Shown piece by piece: positions 7,837-36,619 of a stretch of 45,420 nt of DNA. The stretch is from Labilithrix sp. (GTDB lineage: Bacteria; Myxococcota_A; Polyangia; Polyangiales; Polyangiaceae): positions 1 to 45,420 of the forward strand of contig JAHBWF010000050.1 of NCBI GenBank assembly GCA_019637105.1, in the 5' to 3' direction. A program made the translations under genes and the position numbers. How positions within the stretch are numbered: position 1 is the first letter of the stretch; each line of letters opens with the position of its first letter. Below the pieces are notes generated by a model. It was not told the DNA's origin. It was given only the letters and a program-made list of their open reading frames with translations, and made no database searches.

Positions 7837-9688
<1,852 letters not shown>

Positions 9689-9705
<17 letters not shown>

Positions 9706-10110: not shown

Positions 10111-10183
10111 CAAAAGAAGGGCCGGGAGCACGCGGGGTGCGACCACAGAGACGAGGTTTGCCGTGAGCGTTCGAGGAGCGTCG

Positions 10184-11587
10184 ATGTCGAAGAGGAACCT
10201 GGGCTGGGGCTTCGGGACGGCCGTCGTGCTGACCGCGCTCGCCGCCGCGGCGTGCAGCTCGGACGAGACCGACGCGACGGACGGCGTCGACGCGGGCCCC
10301 GACTCTTCCGACGGCGGGGGCACGCCCGCCGAAGACGCCGGGCCCGGCGTCGACGAAGACGCCGGAGGCGACGCGGGAGGAGACGCCGGTGACGGAGGCG
10401 ACGAGGAGCCGCCGCACCCGACGCGGTGCACGACGACCATCGCGCCGGCCCAGAACGACGGCTTCGTCGAGCTCTGCAAGCCGGCGCAGGGGATCGTCCA
10501 GCACGTGCGGATCTCCGGCGTCCAGGTGCCGGCGACGCACGAGTCGGCGCAGGTCGTCTTCGGGTTCGACGCGCCGCCGGCGTCGGCGACCGCGGCCCTC
10601 GCGGACGATCAGCTCCGCGTCCTGCTCTACGGAGGAGGAGCGCCCGCGCCGCCCGCGCTCCTCGAGGCGACGTGGGGCTCGATCCGGCAGGTCCTCGGAG
10701 GCAACGTGCCGTCCCTGAACACGGCCGCTTCGACGGTCTGCTTCGACGTCCACGACGGCGGGGCCGACGCGCCGCCGTACTTCGCGATCTGGGTCCAAGG
10801 GCAAAAGGGAGCCAACTGCCTCGACCGCGCGACGCTCACCGTCGCGAGCGCCCACGCGATCCGCGCGAGCTGGCACGGGGAGGTCGGCGCGCTCGCCAAG
10901 GACGCGAAGGCGTACTACCGCCAGTCCGTCGGGGTGAAGACGAGCGCCACGGTCACGGTGTCGAGCGTCCCGGCGCTCTCCGCCGACACGCTGAAGGCCG
11001 CCGTCGCGTGCTCGACGCCGTGGGTCGCGAACACCGACTGGCAGAAGCTGTGCACGCCCGCCGCCAACGACGTCCGGCACGTGCGCATCGAGAACGCGTC
11101 GGCGACCAGCAGCAGCCGCTATTTCTACGCGGTGCTCGGCCAGGACGCCGCGCCCGCGGGGAACCCCGCCGTCGGACCGGGCAAGCTCATCGTGACGGGC
11201 GGGCAGTCGCAGGGCGGCGCCTCGTGGACGTACTTCCGCTTCGGCGACACCGCCGGTCAGAACTCGACGACCACGTACAGCTACGCCACGGACGCCGACG
11301 CGCCGCTCTACACCGCGGCGCCGAGCACGATCTGCTTCGACGTCGGCACCACGACGACCGGCAACGTCCGCTTCGTGTTCTGGGCCACCGGCAAGAACGG
11401 CGCGGACTGCAGCGACCACGCGACGCTGACCACGGCGAACGCGCTCTACGACAGCACGACCGACGCGGTGACCGGCAACATCTGGCAGGGCCTCATCGCC
11501 GCCGGCAAGGAGAACTTCATCAAGACGAGCGGCGCCGACGTCACGCTCGGCGCCGCCGTCGTCTCGAGCGAGCCCGCCGCGCTCTGA
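10184..11587 (+). CDS. Secreted lipoprotein with two tandem copies of one domain
   Basis: A 467-residue lipoprotein. The ATG at 10184 is preceded by GAGGAG at good spacing and is preferred to the GTG at 10163. The signal peptide ends in AAAAC (Cys24), followed by a typical D/A/G linker (DGVDAGPDSSDGGG). The mature part contains the same roughly 170-residue unit twice. Matching landmarks are LCKPAQGIVQHVRI and LCTPAANDVRHVRI, then STVCFDV and STICFDV, then AIWVQGQKGANCLDRATLT and VFWATGKNGADCSDHATLT. Each unit holds paired cysteines that could form a disulphide. I do not recognise the family. A strong terminator follows at 11621. Confidence 0.85.
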   Translation: MSKRNLGWGFGTAVVLTALAAAACSSDETDATDGVDAGPDSSDGGGTPAEDAGPGVDEDAGGDAGGDAGDGGDEEPPHPTRCTTTIAPAQNDGFVELCKPAQGIVQHVRISGVQVPATHESAQVVFGFDAPPASATAALADDQLRVLLYGGGAPAPPALLEATWGSIRQVLGGNVPSLNTAASTVCFDVHDGGADAPPYFAIWVQGQKGANCLDRATLTVASAHAIRASWHGEVGALAKDAKAYYRQSVGVKTSATVTVSSVPALSADTLKAAVACSTPWVANTDWQKLCTPAANDVRHVRIENASATSSSRYFYAVLGQDAAPAGNPAVGPGKLIVTGGQSQGGASWTYFRFGDTAGQNSTTTYSYATDADAPLYTAAPSTICFDVGTTTTGNVRFVFWATGKNGADCSDHATLTTANALYDSTTDAVTGNIWQGLIAAGKENFIKTSGADVTLGAAVVSSEPAAL

Positions 11588-11620
11588 AGCGACCGCGCCG
11601 TCGGCGGGCGCGCGGAACCT

Positions 11621-11657
11621 AAACGGCGCAGCGGGCGGTCGCCTGCTGCGCCGTTTT
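11621..11657 (+). terminator. Rho-independent terminator (hairpin copy 1)
   Basis: AAACGGCGCAGC pairs perfectly with GCTGCGCCGTTT. The inner part GGGCGGTCGCCT can extend the stem through a G-T wobble and a GGCG/CGCC pairing. The hairpin is followed by TTTT and begins 33 bases after the lipoprotein stop, so it should end that transcript. The same hairpin core recurs at 11882. Confidence 0.85.
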
Positions 11658-11733
11658 CGCGCCGCCGGCGCGCGCACCAGCCACGGACGACGTCTTCGCG
11701 CCGCCGGCGCGCGCACCAGCCACGGACGACGTC
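11656..11733. repeat. Two tandem copies of a 39-base unit
   Basis: The unit TTCGCGCCGCCGGCGCGCGC (first 20 bases) continues to CACGGACGACGTC and is repeated exactly, at 11656-11694 and 11695-11733. The repeat begins inside the T-tract of the terminator. No coding function was seen. Exact identity suggests a recent slip or duplication. Confidence 0.9.
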
Positions 11734-11777
11734 TTACGCCCGGCTCGAAGGACGATCCGCTCGGAGCGCGACGCGCC

Positions 11778-11837
11778 CCAGCAGACCGGCGGCGTCAACG
11801 CAGGCGACGGGCGAGGAGCTCGGCCTCGAGCTCAACG
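11778..11837 (+). repeat. Inverted partial copy of the adjacent dehydratase gene
   Basis: These 60 bases match 59 bases of the dehydratase coding sequence at 13269-13211 (minus strand) with one substitution and one inserted C. They encode the equivalent of QQTGGIKQATGEELGLELN, residues 185-203 of that protein, but read on the plus strand. Similarity stops abruptly on both sides. The copy lies outside the gene, 118 bases beyond its stop, between the two similar hairpins at 11621 and 11882. It is non-coding as it stands because the insertion breaks the frame. Confidence 0.9.
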
Positions 11838-11881
11838 GGCCGTCCGCGAGCCCTCACGGCGAACGCGTGACGCGACACGAC

Positions 11882-11915
11882 GACGGCGCAGCGGGCGGTC
11901 GCCTGCTGCGCCGTC
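11882..11915. repeat. Second copy of the 11621 hairpin
   Basis: GACGGCGCAGC pairs with GCTGCGCCGTC around the same 12-base loop as copy 1. Similarity to copy 1 continues for about 15 bases on the right (TCGCG.CGCCGGCGCG). There is no T-tract on either side. It lies 40 bases beyond the stop of the minus-strand dehydratase gene, so it may protect or help end that transcript. It could equally be a dispersed palindromic repeat. Confidence 0.7.
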
Positions 11916-11954
11916 TCGCGTCGCCGGCGCGCCGGCGACGTTCTTCGCCGGGGG

Positions 11955-13820
11955 CTACTCCTCGGCGGCCGCGTCGAGCGTGGCCTCGGCGCGCGGCGCC
12001 TTCTTCTTGAGCGCGCGGATCTCGCGGAGGATCGTGATGTCCTCCTTGACGCGCTCGGCGACCTTCGGCGCTTCCTTGACCGCCTCGACGAGGCTGACGG
12101 CGAGGTGCGGCGTCTTCTCGAGCGCCTGCTTGCTGCCGGTCACCAGCGCCGTCAAACGCGCCTTCCAGCGCTCCGCGCGCGTCTTCGTGATGTACGGCGC
12201 GACCGCCGCGACGACGTCCGCGTTGTTCCCGCAGTAGACGTGCTTGGCCTTGTAGGACGGGCTCCGGAACTTCGGGTTGGCCTCGAGGAACGCGGCGACC
12301 TGCTCGCGCGTGACGCCGTTCTCGGCGAGCGCGCGCTCGTACTCGGCCTGCGCCGCCTGCTTCGCCTTGAAGAGGTACATCTGCACGCGCGAGTAGAAGT
12401 TCACGCGCCCGTCGCCGCTGGTCTCGACCGGGCAGAAGATCGTGCCGGGGAACTTCTCCGTGATCGCCGTCTGGACGCCGTCCGAGACGCCCGCGCTCGG
12501 CATGCAGCCGAAGGGCTTTACGCTGAGCGTCATGTGGCACTTCTGGTGGAGGACGTTGACGATCAGCTTGCCGACCTCCATGTGGCCTTCGCCGCCGCGG
12601 AGATCGTTGTTGTAGTAGTCGTGCGCCACCCGCGCGACTTCGTCCATCGACGCGAACGTGTAGCCGTAGAGGCCCGCGGTGTAGGCGAAGACCTGGAAGA
12701 GGGCCTTCACGCCCTTGTCGCCGAGGTGGCTGATCGCCAGCTTCTGGAAGACGGAGAACGGCCCGCCGCCGCCGAGGCCGTACTTCGCGGTGTCCCACTC
12801 GCGGAGATCGCCGCGCTCCTTGGTGTCGTTGCGGACCTCCCAGAGCATGTAGAGCATCCAGGCCGCGACCAGCTGGATGTCGCACTCGGCGCCCTCGGCC
12901 TCGAGGAACTCCTGGAGCTGGTAGTTGCCGTCTCCCTCGGTGGTCATCGCCCAGAACTCGCCGATGATCGAGACCTTCGGCTTGACCATGGTCTTGTCGA
13001 CCTCGATCGAGCGGAGGACCGGCTTGCACCGCCAGAGGGCGTGGAGGATGTTCGTGCGCTTCTCGAGCGCCTCGTAGAGGATCCCCTTCGCCTCGGTCAG
13101 CTTCTTGTTCGCGTCGCCCTTGACCTTCTCGTACGGGCGGACGCGGTAGCCGTAGGCGTTGAGGACGTCGCCGGCGATCATGCCCTTGACGATCGCCCAG
13201 AAGAACGTCGCGTTGAGCTCGAGGCCGAGCTCCTCGCCCGTCGCCTGCTTGATGCCGCCGGTCTGCTGGAAGAGCAGGACGCGGAAGCCGTCGAAGCCCG
13301 CGTCGCGGAGCGCCTTCCGGTACTCCGTGACGTACATGCCGAAGCGGCACGGCCCGCACGCGCCCGCCGTGAGGAAGCAGTACTTCTTCACGATCTCTTC
13401 GCTCGTCATGCCGTGCTTGTCGCGCAGCGCGATGAGGTACTGGATCAGGTTGCCGACGGTGAAGTACGTCGGGTTGCACTGGCCGCGGTTGCCGAACTCC
13501 TTGCCGGCCTGGAACGCCGCCGTGTCCGGGACGTTCAGCATCTGGACGTTGTAGCCGACGCCCCGGAGCGCGCCCTCGATGAGGTAGTCGTGCGCGAGCG
13601 TGAGGCCGCCGATGAGGAGGGTGACGTTGTCACGCTCGGTGCGCGTGAACTGCAGGTTCACCATGTCGTCGAGCCACTGCTCGGTCTTGCCGTCGAGTCC
13701 GAGGCGCTTCTTCTCCTCCGCCTCGAACTTCGCCAGCTCGGCGTCGAGGTCCAGGTCCTGGCCCTGGATCTTGAGCTTCTTCTTGCCGTTGATCCCCGTG
13801 ACGGTCGTTGCGTTGCTCAT
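11955..13820 (-). CDS. 2-hydroxyacyl-CoA dehydratase-type subunit (HgdB-like)
   Basis: A 621-residue protein starting at ATG 13820 with GAGGAG upstream, 14 bases after the activase gene stop. It resembles the dehydratase-like C-terminal portion of large CoA-substrate-specific enzyme activases. Cysteines likely to bind an iron-sulphur cluster include Cys115 (NRGQCNP), Cys148 and the Cys155/Cys158 pair (TAGACGPCRFGMY). PFGCMPSAGVSDGVQT and FCPVETSGDGRVNFYSRVQM are further conserved-looking segments. In the family such subunits eliminate water from 2-hydroxyacyl-CoA using a high-energy electron delivered by the ATPase. The C-terminal 90 residues are a lysine/alanine-rich helical extension. The substrate is not evident, and a reductase-like role is also possible. 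Part of its sequence is copied at 11778-11837. Confidence 0.8.
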   Translation of the reverse strand: MSNATTVTGINGKKKLKIQGQDLDLDAELAKFEAEEKKRLGLDGKTEQWLDDMVNLQFTRTERDNVTLLIGGLTLAHDYLIEGALRGVGYNVQMLNVPDTAAFQAGKEFGNRGQCNPTYFTVGNLIQYLIALRDKHGMTSEEIVKKYCFLTAGACGPCRFGMYVTEYRKALRDAGFDGFRVLLFQQTGGIKQATGEELGLELNATFFWAIVKGMIAGDVLNAYGYRVRPYEKVKGDANKKLTEAKGILYEALEKRTNILHALWRCKPVLRSIEVDKTMVKPKVSIIGEFWAMTTEGDGNYQLQEFLEAEGAECDIQLVAAWMLYMLWEVRNDTKERGDLREWDTAKYGLGGGGPFSVFQKLAISHLGDKGVKALFQVFAYTAGLYGYTFASMDEVARVAHDYYNNDLRGGEGHMEVGKLIVNVLHQKCHMTLSVKPFGCMPSAGVSDGVQTAITEKFPGTIFCPVETSGDGRVNFYSRVQMYLFKAKQAAQAEYERALAENGVTREQVAAFLEANPKFRSPSYKAKHVYCGNNADVVAAVAPYITKTRAERWKARLTALVTGSKQALEKTPHLAVSLVEAVKEAPKVAERVKEDITILREIRALKKKAPRAEATLDAAAEE

Positions 13821-13834
13821 GTCTTTCTCCTCGA

Positions 13835-16800
13835 TCACTCGGCGGCGTTGACGGCGCTGTCTACCGGAGTCGCTAGCGACGGTGCGCTCCCGTGCGAACC
13901 TGCGCGGGAGCCGACGACGGGCTGCTCTGCGGCGGCCGTCATGACTCGTGACTGGGCGGGGGCGTCCACGCGCGTGATCGACCCGTCCTTGTTCTTCTTC
14001 CCGAGCTTCACCATGCTCTTGGCCTCCGCGTCCGCGGGGCCCGTCAGGCTGCTCGTCCTGGGCTTGTAGGCGCGCACCTTCTCGCGCAGCGCCTCGATCT
14101 GGAGCCGGAGCGCCTCGTCCTTCACGCGGCGGCTCTCGAGCTGCGTCGCCTTGAGCTCGAGCAGCTCGAGGCGCTTCTGGTCGATGCGATGCGCGAGCTC
14201 GTGCATCTTCTCGCTCGCGTCCTGGAGCCGCTCCTCGTGGAGCTTCAGGGCGTGGGCGTAGGTCTTGACGCGGATCTTGATCGACCCCGCCGGCTTGTTC
14301 GCGTCGATGTCGTGGAGCGCCGCGTACGGGGTCTTCGACTTCTCGATGATGCTGTCGACGAGGCCGTAGATCGGCGCGTCGTGGCCGCACTTGAAGCTCG
14401 AGAGATCGAGCACGACCACGTTCGGGTGGTGGGCCGCGAAGACCGCGCCCCACACCTTCTGCGCGCTGTTGACGGAGTAGTTCTCCGGCCAGACGTGGTT
14501 CAGCTCGAGGGGCGTCTTCTGCTGACCGCTCTCGAGCTCCTCCTTGAAGTAGCGATCGAGGTACTCGCGCGTCTTCGGGATCGAGCGGATCGAGAGGATC
14601 GGGTAGCCGAGGACCTGGAACTCCTCGGGGATGCCGTGGTTGAGGCCCGGATCGGAGTGGTACGGGCGCCCGAGCAGGAGGATCGCGACGCGGTCCTCGG
14701 CCTCGACGGTCTCGAGGATCGCGCGGCCCTTCTCCTGGACGTCGTTCTCGAAGATCGTCTGCGCGCGCCACGCCTCGCGGCACGCGTGATCGTTCTCGTC
14801 CTCCGTGATGCCGAGCCGCGGCCCCCACGTCTCGAAGAGGCGCTTGGCCATGAGGTTCGGCTCGACGAACGAGAGCGCAGGGTCGACGTACTCGATGCCG
14901 CGCTGGGCGAAGAAGTCGACCTCCTTCGTGAAGGCGGCCTTCATGACGTCGGGCGCGCCGGCGACGATGGGGCAGCTCGCGTTGTCCATCGTGTCGGCGA
15001 CGAAGTTCGTCACGTGGGTGAGGATCGGGAAGAAGATGTACTTGAGCGGCTTCTTCGCCGAGTGCTGGTGGAAGATGAGGTTGTGGATGTGCGCCTGCGC
15101 GACCTTGCTCGGGTAGCACGGGTCGATCGAGCCGTACTTGCCCCCCTCGACCCACATCTCTTCGGTCGTCTCGTCGGAGAAGACGACGTTCTGCTTCGGG
15201 ATGCCGAGCGCCTCGAGGTACGTCCGGAGGAACGGCGCCGTCGAGTAGATGTTCAGCACACGCGGGATGCCGACGCGCACGCGCCGGCGCGCCTCCCACG
15301 CCTCCTTGCTCGAGCGCCGGAAGGGGCGCGTGACCTCGACGCGGCGCTGGCCGAAGATGCCCTTCTTGATCTCGATGTCCTTGATCGGCGAGCCGTGCTC
15401 GGGCATCGGCGCGGCGTTGTAGAAGTGCATGAACGCGCGCTTCGCCTCGTAGTCCACCATGTTGGGGAACTGCTGCGCGAGCTTCTTCCGCTCGGCGACG
15501 AGGTCGAGCATCGCCTCCTTCGACTCGACCGTCCCCTTCTCGCAGGAGAAGCCGGCGATGTAGCGGCTCGTGCGGCCGTCCGGCGTCTTCGTGTCGATGA
15601 ACGTGCGCTTGCACTCGTTCGGACAGAAGTGACAGACCGTCTCGGCGTCGTTCTTCGTCGTGTATTCGAGGTCGATGGCGGCGTCGAGCCCGATGAACGA
15701 GCTCTTGCCCTTGCGCTTGACGACCCGGAGCGTCTCCATCGCCGCGCCGATCGCGCCGGCCTCGCCCGTGTGCGGGTGGACGAAGACCTCGCCGTTCGGG
15801 ACGCGCTCCTTGATGTAGTCGACCTGCGCCTTGACCGCCGCGAGGTTGTACTGCGTGCCGCCCTGGAGGACGAACTTGCGCCCGAGCGACGCGAGGCGCG
15901 GGATCTGCACGACGTACTGCCAGACGTTCTTCGGCAGCACCTGCGCAAGGCCCGCGAGCATCTCCTCCTTCGAGAAGCCCTCCTTCTGGAAGTTGACGCG
16001 GTCGGTGTCGAGGAAGACGGCGCACCCGTAGCTGAACTTGGGCGCGAGCTCCGCCTTGAAGGCGACGTCCGCGAACTGCGTGACCGGGACGCCGAACGAG
16101 TCGGCCGTGCCCTGGAGCAGCGTGCCGTTGCCGGCGCTGCACGAGTTCGAGAGGCGGAAGTTGGCGATGTCGCCGTTCTTCATGAACAGGACCTTGATGT
16201 CCTGCCCGCCGATGTCGCAGATGACGTCGACGTCGCCGAAGAAGTGCACCGCGCTGAGCATGTGCGCGACGGTCTCGACGATGTTCACGTCGCTCTTCAC
16301 GCACTCCTCGAGGACGTCGGCGGCGTAGCCGGTCGCGCCGAAGCCCATGACCTCGAGCTCCGCGCCCTGCTTGGTCGCGTACTCCCGCAGCTGCGTGAGG
16401 AGCTCCTTGGTGTCCTGGATCGGGTTGCCCTTCGAGAGCTGGTAGGCCTTCGTCAGGATCTTCCCGCTTTCGTAGTCGACGAGGACCGCCTTGCTCGACG
16501 TCGAGCCGCCGTCGAGGCCGATGACCGCGCGCACCTTCTCCCCGGCACGGAGCGCCTCGGGCACGTACTTCGGGATCTTGTAGAGCTCACGGAACTCCTC
16601 GAGCTCCTGCTCGCTCTTCGACAGCGGCGGGCCCGCGCTCTCGCCGAGGCGCGCCTTGCGGCCGGTCGTGATGTAGTCGCGGAGATCGACGAGGTCGCCC
16701 TTGAGCCAGCCGACGTGGGCCTCCTCGTGCAGGCCGTAGAGCACGGCGCCGAGGGCGGCGTAGTACTGCGCGTTCTCGGGGACGAAGACGAGCTCCTCGA

Positions 16801-17581
16801 TCGGCACGTCCTTCGGGTAGTCGTAGCCGCGCTCGTCCCAGACCTGCGGGATGCGCAGGCGCCAGCAGTCCTGGAGGAACGGCAGGTACGTGTTCGGCCC
16901 GCCGAGCAAGAGGACGCGCGCCTTCAGCGTGTTGCCGCGCGTGAGGACCGAGAGGTTCTGCATGACGATCGCGTCGGCGAGCGAGCAGAGGACCTCGGTC
17001 GACGGGATGCCGCTCTTGATCAGGTTGACGATGTCCGTCTCCGCGAACACGCCGCACTTCGCCGCGACGTGGTGCAGCTTCGAGTCGTCGAAGCGGAGCG
17101 TCGTGACGAGCTCCGGCGGCGCGTTCACCTTCAAGAAGCACTTGTCGATGGTGGCGCCCGTCCCGGACGCGCACTTGTCGTTCATCGACGCCATCGCCGT
17201 CTTCTCGCCGGTCTTCTCGTCCGCCTTGAACATGATGATCTTGGCGTCCTGACCACCGAGCTCGACGACCGAGAGGACGTCGGGGTGGAGGTGCTCGACC
17301 GCGAGCGTGACCGCGTTCACCTCCTGGACGAACTTGCCGCCGGTCGACGGCGCCAGCGGCGCCGAGCCCGAGCCGGTCAGGAAGATGCGCCAGCCGTCCT
17401 TCGGGTGATCGGGGAAGGCCGCGAGGATCGTCTCGAGGAGCTCGAGCACCTTCTCCGGCTGCTTCGTGTGGTGGCGCTGGTAGTCGCTCCAGAGGATCGC
17501 CTTCGACTCGGGATCGACGACGGTGGCCTTCACCGTGGTCGAGCCGACGTCCATTCCGATCGCAAGAAACGATTTCGACAT
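13835..17581 (-). CDS. Fused double BadF/HgdC-type activase with DUF2229-like region
   Basis: A 1248-residue protein; the ATG at 17581 has GGAG seven bases upstream and is preferred to TTG 17596. It carries two ASKHA ATPase domains in tandem. Domain 1 has DVGSTTVK (11-18), ELGGQDAK (107-114), Cys137 in NDKCASGTG and Cys176 in AAKCGVFAETD. Domain 2 has GLDGGSTSSK (355-364), DIGGQDIK (456-463), Cys481 in SNSCSAGNG and Cys520 in YGCAVFLDTD. In homodimeric HgdC the two such cysteines of each chain share one bridging 4Fe-4S cluster, so this fusion may form a pseudo-dimer. A CHFCPNEC motif (649-656, plus Cys679) precedes a DUF2229-like part (VGIPRVLNIYSTAPFLRTYL). A coiled-coil tail follows. It should fuel the dehydratase encoded just downstream. 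Confidence 0.88.
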   Translation of the reverse strand: MSKSFLAIGMDVGSTTVKATVVDPESKAILWSDYQRHHTKQPEKVLELLETILAAFPDHPKDGWRIFLTGSGSAPLAPSTGGKFVQEVNAVTLAVEHLHPDVLSVVELGGQDAKIIMFKADEKTGEKTAMASMNDKCASGTGATIDKCFLKVNAPPELVTTLRFDDSKLHHVAAKCGVFAETDIVNLIKSGIPSTEVLCSLADAIVMQNLSVLTRGNTLKARVLLLGGPNTYLPFLQDCWRLRIPQVWDERGYDYPKDVPIEELVFVPENAQYYAALGAVLYGLHEEAHVGWLKGDLVDLRDYITTGRKARLGESAGPPLSKSEQELEEFRELYKIPKYVPEALRAGEKVRAVIGLDGGSTSSKAVLVDYESGKILTKAYQLSKGNPIQDTKELLTQLREYATKQGAELEVMGFGATGYAADVLEECVKSDVNIVETVAHMLSAVHFFGDVDVICDIGGQDIKVLFMKNGDIANFRLSNSCSAGNGTLLQGTADSFGVPVTQFADVAFKAELAPKFSYGCAVFLDTDRVNFQKEGFSKEEMLAGLAQVLPKNVWQYVVQIPRLASLGRKFVLQGGTQYNLAAVKAQVDYIKERVPNGEVFVHPHTGEAGAIGAAMETLRVVKRKGKSSFIGLDAAIDLEYTTKNDAETVCHFCPNECKRTFIDTKTPDGRTSRYIAGFSCEKGTVESKEAMLDLVAERKKLAQQFPNMVDYEAKRAFMHFYNAAPMPEHGSPIKDIEIKKGIFGQRRVEVTRPFRRSSKEAWEARRRVRVGIPRVLNIYSTAPFLRTYLEALGIPKQNVVFSDETTEEMWVEGGKYGSIDPCYPSKVAQAHIHNLIFHQHSAKKPLKYIFFPILTHVTNFVADTMDNASCPIVAGAPDVMKAAFTKEVDFFAQRGIEYVDPALSFVEPNLMAKRLFETWGPRLGITEDENDHACREAWRAQTIFENDVQEKGRAILETVEAEDRVAILLLGRPYHSDPGLNHGIPEEFQVLGYPILSIRSIPKTREYLDRYFKEELESGQQKTPLELNHVWPENYSVNSAQKVWGAVFAAHHPNVVVLDLSSFKCGHDAPIYGLVDSIIEKSKTPYAALHDIDANKPAGSIKIRVKTYAHALKLHEERLQDASEKMHELAHRIDQKRLELLELKATQLESRRVKDEALRLQIEALREKVRAYKPRTSSLTGPADAEAKSMVKLGKKNKDGSITRVDAPAQSRVMTAAAEQPVVGSRAGSHGSAPSLATPVDSAVNAAE

Positions 17582-17661
17582 CAGGGGCTCCAGCAAGCGG
17601 GTGAACCGCGTGGACGGCGTCCACGGAGGTCCACGAGCGACCGGCGAAGGCCGAGCGCGAG

Positions 17662-35197: not shown

Positions 35198-35245
35198 GCG
35201 GACGGCGCGCGCGCGCTTCAGAGCGACGAGCGCGACCCGCCGAGG

Positions 35246-35396
35246 ATTGCGGCCGTGATTCGTTCTGGCTATGTCAGGGCGAATGTCGAACCTCGAGCCG
35301 CGTGAAGAGCTGGCCAACATCGCCGCTTCGCTCCGCGCGTACCTCGAGTGGCAGGTGGACTGCGGGAGCTCGGGCATCCCGCGGCGTCCTCGGCCG
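35246..35396 (+). repeat. Direct repeat A, copy 1 (glycosylase 5' end)
   Basis: About 150 bases starting ATTGCGGCCGTGATTCGTTC recur at 36280-36425 in the same orientation, with roughly nine in ten bases identical and several short indels. The repeat covers what looks like the leader and the first 40-45 codons of the uracil-DNA glycosylase gene. The flanks of the two copies are unrelated. In this copy the reading frame is intact. Confidence 0.9.
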
Positions 35397-35483
35397 GCGC
35401 GGCCCGCGCCGATCGCGCCACTAGCGCTCCTTTCCGGTTTGCGGAGTGTAGTTTCGGGGCGCAGCCCGCGCGCAGGCAGGTGA
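35271..35483 (+). pseudogene. Detached N-terminal fragment of uracil-DNA glycosylase
   Basis: From ATG 35271 the product begins MSGRMSNLEPREELANIAAS, then LRAYLEWQVDCGSSGIPRRP, the style of the helical N-terminal extension found on many deltaproteobacterial family 4 glycosylases. After about 45 codons it runs into the inverted-repeat arm and ends at 35483 with no catalytic domain. The catalytic domain is about 1.2 kb downstream at 36701. This copy preserves the frame that the closer copy (36305) has lost. Probably not functional. Confidence 0.6.
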
Positions 35484-35560
35484 TTCCCACCGGCGAGGAT
35501 GATCCCGCTCCTTGTGCGGGCGAGGTCTCCCCAACCCCGACACCGCTTTGCGGACTGCGG
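35415..35560 (+). repeat. Inverted repeat B, left arm
   Basis: This 146-base arm matches the reverse complement of 35985-36131, with nearly nine in ten bases the same. The best-kept core is AGGTCTCCCCAACCCCGACA followed by CCGCTTTGCG, without mismatch; GGTGATTCCCACCGGCGAGG is also exact. With the right arm it encloses about 420 bases that include a transposase remnant. It contains no gene I trust, although short reading frames cross it. Confidence 0.88.
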
Positions 35561-35758
35561 TCGCAGGGTTTTCGAGTCTGAGCAGGACTCCGCGGCTCTC
35601 GGACCTTGTCGTTCTTCTTTCGACCGTCGTTCACCGGCTCCGGCGTTCGATCGGCTCGATTCTGGTTCGGCGGGCCTCCGAAAACTCTTATTTGTGCATG
35701 ATGCATGTGTTTCTGACCAAGCTCGTGCGACGCACGACCGGCATGCTGCCGTACAGGA

Positions 35759-35950
35759 CCGAAGTTCACGGACGACAACGATGCGGTGACGGCGCACGCC
35801 GGACGGCCTCTCGTGGTGGAGACGATGCGGACGCTGGGCGTCAGCCGTCAGCTCGACGAGGAGCTTCGACTCCGGCGGCGGACAGCGGAACGACCGACGC
35901 CGAGAAGGCGGAGGTGCCGACCCGTCGCGAGTCGCCTGCGCCGCGATTGA
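35759..35950 (+). mobile_element. Transposase N-terminal remnant (IS1380-like)
   Basis: In one frame the DNA reads PKFTDDNDAVTAHAGRPLVV, then ETMRTLGVSRQLDEELRLRR, then arginine-rich sequence to a TGA at 35948. The T-A-H-A-G-x-P-L-V-x-E-T-x-R-x-L-G pattern is typical of the start of IS1380-group transposases. The roughly 350 residues carrying the DDE catalytic part are missing. There is no start codon with a ribosome site. I take it as a dead fragment enclosed by inverted repeat B. Family assignment is from memory. Confidence 0.55.
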
Positions 35951-35984
35951 GGTCGTCCTCCGCACCTTCGTCCCCACCCGCGCT

Positions 35985-36131
35985 CGGCAGTTCGCAAAGC
36001 GGTGTCGGGGTTGGGGAGACCTCGCGCCCGCACAAGGAGCCCAGGATCTTCCTCGCCGGTGGGAATCACCTACCCGCGCGCGGGCACGCGCCCGAAACTA
36101 CCTCCGCAAACCGAAAGAGCCCCAGTGGCGC
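35985..36131 (-). repeat. Inverted repeat B, right arm
   Basis: The reverse complement of this stretch aligns over its whole length with 35415-35560. Differences are short indels and scattered substitutions, some in the stem region CCCGC/GCGGG, so the arms are not freshly copied. Together the arms could fold into a very large hairpin, or mark the ends of a foldback or MITE-like element of about 717 bases (35415-36131). Confidence 0.88.
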
Positions 36132-36279
36132 GTGACTCGCGCGGAAAGGGCCTCGCGATCGGCAACGGGCGACGCGGGCGCGCGAGGGTTTCGACCCCGG
36201 CGCCGCCCCGACAGGATGAGTCGCGCGGGGGTCATCCAACACGCAACGCTCCTGTTGTGGATCGGGCGCCCGGCGGAGC

Positions 36280-36619
36280 ATTGCGGCCGCGAATCGTTCT
36301 GGCTATGTCAGAGGCGATGTCGAACCGAGCCGCGTGAAGAGCTGGCCAGCATCGCCGCCTCCTCCGCGCGTACCTCTGAGTGGCAGCTCGACTGCGGGAG
36401 CTCGGGATCCCCAGGCGTCCGCGCGCGGCGACGGCTGCGGTCCCGCTCCGCAGGTGCTGCAGCGACGCCGAGCGCGGCGAGCGCGGCGACTTCCGCGAAG
36501 GACGAGCCGTCGGACCCGTCGCCCGCGGCGCCCCTCGCCGATCGTTCGTGAGCGCAGCACACCGGGCGGCGCCCCCGGCGGCGCCCTCCGCCCGGCCTGC
36601 TGCCTCCGATCTACGTTGA
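36280..36619 (+). pseudogene. Repeat A copy 2: frameshifted 5' part of the glycosylase gene
   Basis: 36280-36425 is the second copy of repeat A. From ATG 36305 the frame reads [10 protein letters not shown] and stops at 36335, because CTCGAG of copy 1 has become CGAG. One frame over, the sequence continues as [27 protein letters not shown] and an A/S/P linker ([20 protein letters not shown]) to a TGA at 36549. The catalytic frame itself has a TGA at 36617-36619. So the ancestral N-terminal extension is present just ahead of the catalytic part but no longer joined to it in frame. Indel errors in the sequence would be an alternative explanation. Confidence 0.7.

Follow-up and report, generated by a model that had tools for sequence, protein, structure and literature searches.

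Just outside the 3′ end of a minus-strand gene of Labilithrix sp. (contig JAHBWF010000050.1) lies a 60-base inverted near copy of a stretch from within that same gene, and this copy is probably the scar of a template switch. The whole stretch of DNA that was analysed, 45,420 nucleotides, is referred to here as the window. The sequence-only reading had named an inverted duplication or template switch among its explanations, and this proved to be the best supported of them: the copy is inverted and nearly identical, its source is intact, and it is absent in the relatives tested. It looks like a harmless scar and not a working element, and in kind it is an ordinary mutation.

The inverted copy and its source gene

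The reverse-complement match between 11778-11837 and 13211-13269 is real, with one substitution and one inserted base in 60 alignment columns. BLAST extended it to 66 columns at 94% identity, with an E value of 4.1e-21 in the window and 6.0e-21 in the own draft assembly (8,454,228 bases), and it is the second-strongest among the inverted pairs listed for the window. The two arms are about 1.36 kb apart. The substitution falls at gene base 13253, which is A in the gene and G in the copy, and the inserted base is a frame-breaking C at 11799; once this C is set aside, the copy equals its own gene at 58 of 59 bases. The genes and stretches concerned are the following.

10163-11587, plus strand: convergent gene, 474 aa, from reading frame and homology; it stands beside the same source gene in the relatives L081 and L083
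11778-11837, plus strand: inverted copy of gene bases 13269-13211, with the gene-sense letters on the plus strand; from alignment (one substitution, one inserted base)
11955-13820, minus strand: source gene, 621 aa from a likely ATG at 13820; from reading frame and homology searches
13211-13269, minus strand: source stretch within the gene; aligned in 18 relatives
13835-17596, minus strand: acyl-CoA dehydratase activase gene (BcrAD_BadFG, DUF2229), from domain matches; its upstream limit is taken from the longest reading frame

The activase gene lies upstream of the source gene on the same strand, its product matches BcrAD_BadFG, DUF2229 and an acyl-CoA dehydratase activase model, and the likely ATG of the source gene is 14 bases past its end. 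The source gene itself had been labelled a dehydratase. Its product, taken for the searches as a 631-codon frame starting at 13850, had no Pfam match up to an E value of 10 and neither an NCBIfam match nor a PDB sequence match up to 0.001; the label is thus unconfirmed and rests on context. Homologues of the source gene were matched in 49 of the 59 genomes searched, the own genome included, some of them by short or weak matches. On the far side of the convergent gene, a 622-aa reading frame at 7837-9705 carries a protein kinase domain and a sulfatase-modifying-factor (FGE) domain.

The own assembly is a draft of 334 contigs (8.45 Mb, 91.5% complete), in which we scored the best 40 of 779 first-look candidates for the copy stretch. 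Among these, the next match overlapping the copy reached 45.5 bits, compared with 98.7 bits for the match to the gene. The possibility that the 60 bases are a common repeat therefore fails, as no third copy comes near in score within that set. A dispersed repeat or mobile element was also considered and rejected, since for neither the copy nor the hairpin unit described below did the scored candidates (best 40 of 779) include a similarly strong match in another part of the draft genome.

Relatives and the age of the copy

To compare the same locus in related genomes, we took 20 relative stretches around the gene. L088, in which the gene is cut before its end, was left out, and L096, which holds only the gene's end, was left out of the comparison of the source stretch. 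In all 18 relatives with the source stretch in view, the source is present and the inverted copy is absent from the 3′ flank (0.7-3.5 kb compared), which identifies the copy as a derived state. The best inverted gene match in these flanks reached at most 35.6 bits, as against 98.7 in the window. The same held more widely: no inverted gene match of at least 50 bits was present in the flanks of 80 named loci, and no inverted copy in any of the 76 whose 3′ flank spans 500 bases or more, a set that overlaps the 18 (L191, L207, L215 and L221 have less than 500 bases and are outside the 76). Most of the named relatives are draft genomes under the labels Myxococcales, Polyangiaceae or Labilithrix sp. 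One direct gene match of at least 50 bits was present in the flanks of the 80 loci, at L149. In the genome concerned (G012, which also holds L085), a 364-base direct copy of the gene's 3′ end, 100% identical, lies about 3.2 kb downstream (L085 4865-5228 and 8416-8779).

A search of 59 genomes, among them the own one, listed 17 places in other genomes that overlap the copy stretch with at least 50 bits, and all of them fall within positions of the gene; with no more than 12 candidates scored per genome, a diverged copy could be missed. Below 50 bits there were weak matches in the gene and elsewhere, for example 40 bases at 88% in G056, and these were taken as chance.

The bases themselves indicate where the copy came from. 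The inserted C is lacking in all 18 aligned relatives. At the substituted position, the window gene and its closest relative, L080, have A and the copy has G, a base also found in L085. By parsimony, both differences would have arisen on the copy's branch. The window gene and L080 differ at three positions, and the copy carries the window gene's base at each of them (3/3), although some of these bases also occur in other relatives and not all are unique to the lineage. An origin from a relative's gene was rejected: the window gene is nearest, with 1 difference in 59, compared with 4 to 21 in the relatives. The copy would thus derive from the gene of its own lineage, and the simplest timing is after the separation from L080. 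Because it is absent from relatives, carries both differences and shares the own gene's bases at 3/3 positions, the copy is, judged from sequence comparison, young, made within its own lineage and decaying.

The convergent gap and the right end of the copy

The copy lies in an intergenic gap of 367 bases between the convergent genes, in which the following elements were recognised.

11623-11654, no strand assigned: hairpin copy 1, 32 bases, with AA before and TTT after; terminator-like by eye; from sequence and folding
11649-11726, plus strand: 39-base unit, twice in tandem, 95% identical; from repeat comparison
11838-11934, no strand assigned: 97 bases between the copy and the 12-base piece, a presumed later insert with hairpin copy 2; from sequence and folding
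11883-11914, no strand assigned: hairpin copy 2, the identical 32 bases without a T run; from sequence and folding
11935-11946, plus strand: 12-base exact continuation of the copy, matching gene 13211-13200; probably its detached right end; from sequence match

Hairpin 1 folds at −32.6 kcal/mol on the plus strand and hairpin 2 at −32.5 kcal/mol on the minus strand, and for each of them none of 200 shuffles was as good. Hairpin 2 lies between the gene's stop codon and the copy, and hairpin 1 on the copy's other side. Neither was scored as a terminator by a consensus scan. Rfam gave no match reaching the gathering score over 11500-12000, and a known RNA family was rejected as a candidate on the same grounds, all matches being below that score.

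These elements bear on the idea that the copy works as a 3′ antisense tail, in which read-through of the minus-strand message would add 60 bases antisense to its own coding region, pair with it and alter decay or translation. The orientation fits, since a minus-strand transcript running past 11778 would carry the antisense sequence, and the terminator scan leaves room for read-through; a duplex with the own message is possible in principle. For such a role, however, the region would have to be transcribed, the transcript would have to run through a strong hairpin, and selection would have to act. The −32.5 kcal/mol hairpin stands between the stop codon and the copy, every relative tested lacks the copy, the copy is already decaying, and the region gave no Rfam match at the gathering score. 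We consider a functional antisense tail highly improbable.

The gap has been rearranged. L081 (G007) and L083 (G004) were the only syntenic relatives among 19 stretches, with close homologues of the 474-aa and kinase genes, although several of these stretches are short on the convergent-gene side and other syntenic relatives could be missed. In both, the gap contains a Cys-rich gene (220-222 aa) that is missing from the window's gap. This gene was matched in 5 of 13 genomes of the genus, own included, and the own genome has two homologues on other contigs (C127, 3869-4534, and C201, 49932-50597; 84% and 81%). Neither has a homologue of the 474-aa or kinase gene beside it in the 3.7-kb loci searched, and with these neighbours absent at both, a move of the Cys-rich gene away from the gap is unproven. 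Compared with L080, L081 and L083, the gap had no convincing match except at its ends and at the copy, which matches the gene itself. L080, the closest relative by source gene, is not syntenic downstream.

The copy had been described as stopping sharply at both ends. This holds on the left, where no convincing homology extends further; a 9-mer at 11767-11775 was dropped as a left continuation, as it occurs 14 times in the window, both strands counted. On the right the description may not hold: gene sequence resumes at 11935-11946, exactly from the point where the copy ends. Counted over both strands of 1.98 Mb of other own-genome DNA, the eight 12-mers that carry the gene on close to that end turn up 13 times; at this rate, the 117 bases of right flank should hold about 0.0004 exact gene-continuing 12-mers by chance. 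For looser 11-mers, a Markov model put the expectation at 0.005 in 307 bases. A short match at 11930-11946 is not in itself rare, since a second 12-base gene match (11930-11941 with gene 13176-13165), out of gene order, overlaps the first. As the 12-mer continues the gene where the copy stops, a longer, interrupted copy is possible. On this evidence the original copy was probably about 70 bases long and was split afterwards by 97 bases holding the second hairpin.

The extent of the homology also bears on the suggestion that the fragment is the last remnant of a lost inverted paralogue or of a larger inverted duplication. Partial duplication does occur near this gene, as the 364-base direct second copy of its 3′ end in G012 (100%) attests, and weaker gene matches of 9 to 12 bases are scattered elsewhere in the gap, mostly out of gene order. 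Yet only the 60-base block and the 12-base continuation stand out in gene order: no convincing similarity extends beyond the fragment on the left, and only 12 bases do so on the right. The identity to the own gene (58/59, with the own bases where L080 differs) exceeds what would fit an old gene whose remaining sequence has entirely disappeared, and the source gene gave a single match in the own draft genome, with no second copy or paralogue. A lost paralogue is very unlikely.

We also weighed an assembly or amplification chimera. Amplification is known to produce chimeric sequences, and the own assembly, in 334 contigs, is incomplete. A fresh chimera would nonetheless look different from what is found here: the copy departs from its source twice, two junctions occur within about 60-170 bases, and a 12-base continuation stands apart. 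We give an artefact very little weight.

Origin of the copy and comparable cases

We favour a local template switch because the copy is inverted, near, short and precise and its source is intact. During replication or break repair in the convergent gap, a DNA end would have moved onto the opposite strand at a distance of about 1.4 kb, copied about 60-70 bases inside the minus-strand gene and then returned, leaving an inverted templated insert. The hairpins may have caused the stalling that led to the switch, and a duplicate of the terminator-like hairpin probably split the inverted copy later. The copy presumably has no coding role, and it has decayed by its one substitution and one frame-breaking insertion.

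A nearby inverted copy with its source retained argues for the switch. Against it, no examined relative keeps the pre-event gap, and the switch points and any microhomology cannot be placed; a distance of about 1.4 kb is also longer than that of typical hairpin-type template switches. Moreover, the capture of short pieces in end joining leaves the same pattern. In this main rival, end joining at a double-strand break in the gap would take up a short piece of free DNA from the own cell or a sister, in either orientation and with no polymerase switch. The rearranged gap, lacking the gene present in both syntenic relatives, is consistent with such a break, and the source is indeed the own lineage. 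A source only about 1.4 kb away in 8.45 Mb, however, favours a local switch over a random piece, and we judge capture unlikely.

A local template switch has parallels in described systems. In the four-point model of short-range template-switch mutations, set out for great apes with switches confined to a single replication fork and recognised by comparison with a known ancestral sequence (PMC7954356), an inverted copy of a nearby stretch is likewise inserted between two switch points with its source intact; unlike the cases presented there, our source is about 1.4 kb away and the copy is judged against relatives. In Escherichia coli, hairpin-forming repeats of quasipalindromes stall replication and provoke strand switching (PMC7202029). 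Two strong hairpins similarly flank the present copy, but the switch described in that work perfects an imperfect hairpin, whereas the present copy was taken from a coding stretch some distance away. Template switching also makes RNA hairpins, with bacterial examples in rRNA loops, in a study whose reference list points to work on the excess of inverted repeats in prokaryotes (PMC8794818); new reverse-complement copies arise there too, although its cases are close stems or loops of RNA genes, whereas here coding sequence was copied into a gap. Templated insertions from microhomology-mediated break-induced replication, described in cancer (PMC8421209), resemble the copy as short templated inserts in complex junctions and differ from it in setting, ours lying in a bacterial gap. 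A literature search on template switch mutations in bacterial genomes found none; searches on the mechanism brought up related work, with nothing on the present locus among the titles listed, and we make no claim that the copy is unpublished.

In a natural bacterial lineage, the locus offers a single-genome example of an inverted templated insert whose source is intact; the insert is young compared with its nearest relatives and was probably interrupted later. Such cases help to measure how often template switching builds sequence between bacterial genes, and one case changes nothing alone. A bolder idea is that template switching recurs in this gap as a hotspot: terminator hairpins would repeatedly halt replication and draw in inverted pieces of the adjoining gene, whose message would gain a heritable antisense tail from such scars. 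If so, a terminator region would create new antisense control from nothing, but we hold this to be highly improbable.

We also surveyed inverted pairs of at least 60 bits within 5 kb in 101 own-genome stretches (2,023,492 bases, 24% of the genome, window included); pairs crossing stretch ends are missed by this survey. Seven were found: three long pairs at 68-72%, which are probably genes facing each other, one of 84 bases (79%), one at 35414/35987 in the window (88%), the copy itself, and one at L233 (8581-8630 and 8835-8884; 51 columns, 92%, 205 bases apart). Outside the window, which was chosen for the copy, the L233 pair is the one short pair above 90% in 1.98 Mb. Short high-identity inverted pairs are rare in the own genome, and the present copy may not be unique. 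The 88% pair in the window (35414-35558 and 35987-36132, 150 columns) lies inside a direct pair (35232-35403 and 36266-36435, 87%). Within this unit, 35767-35946 had no Pfam match, and the middle of 35232-36435 reads partly like a decayed transposase N-terminus, which we take to be IS1380-like.
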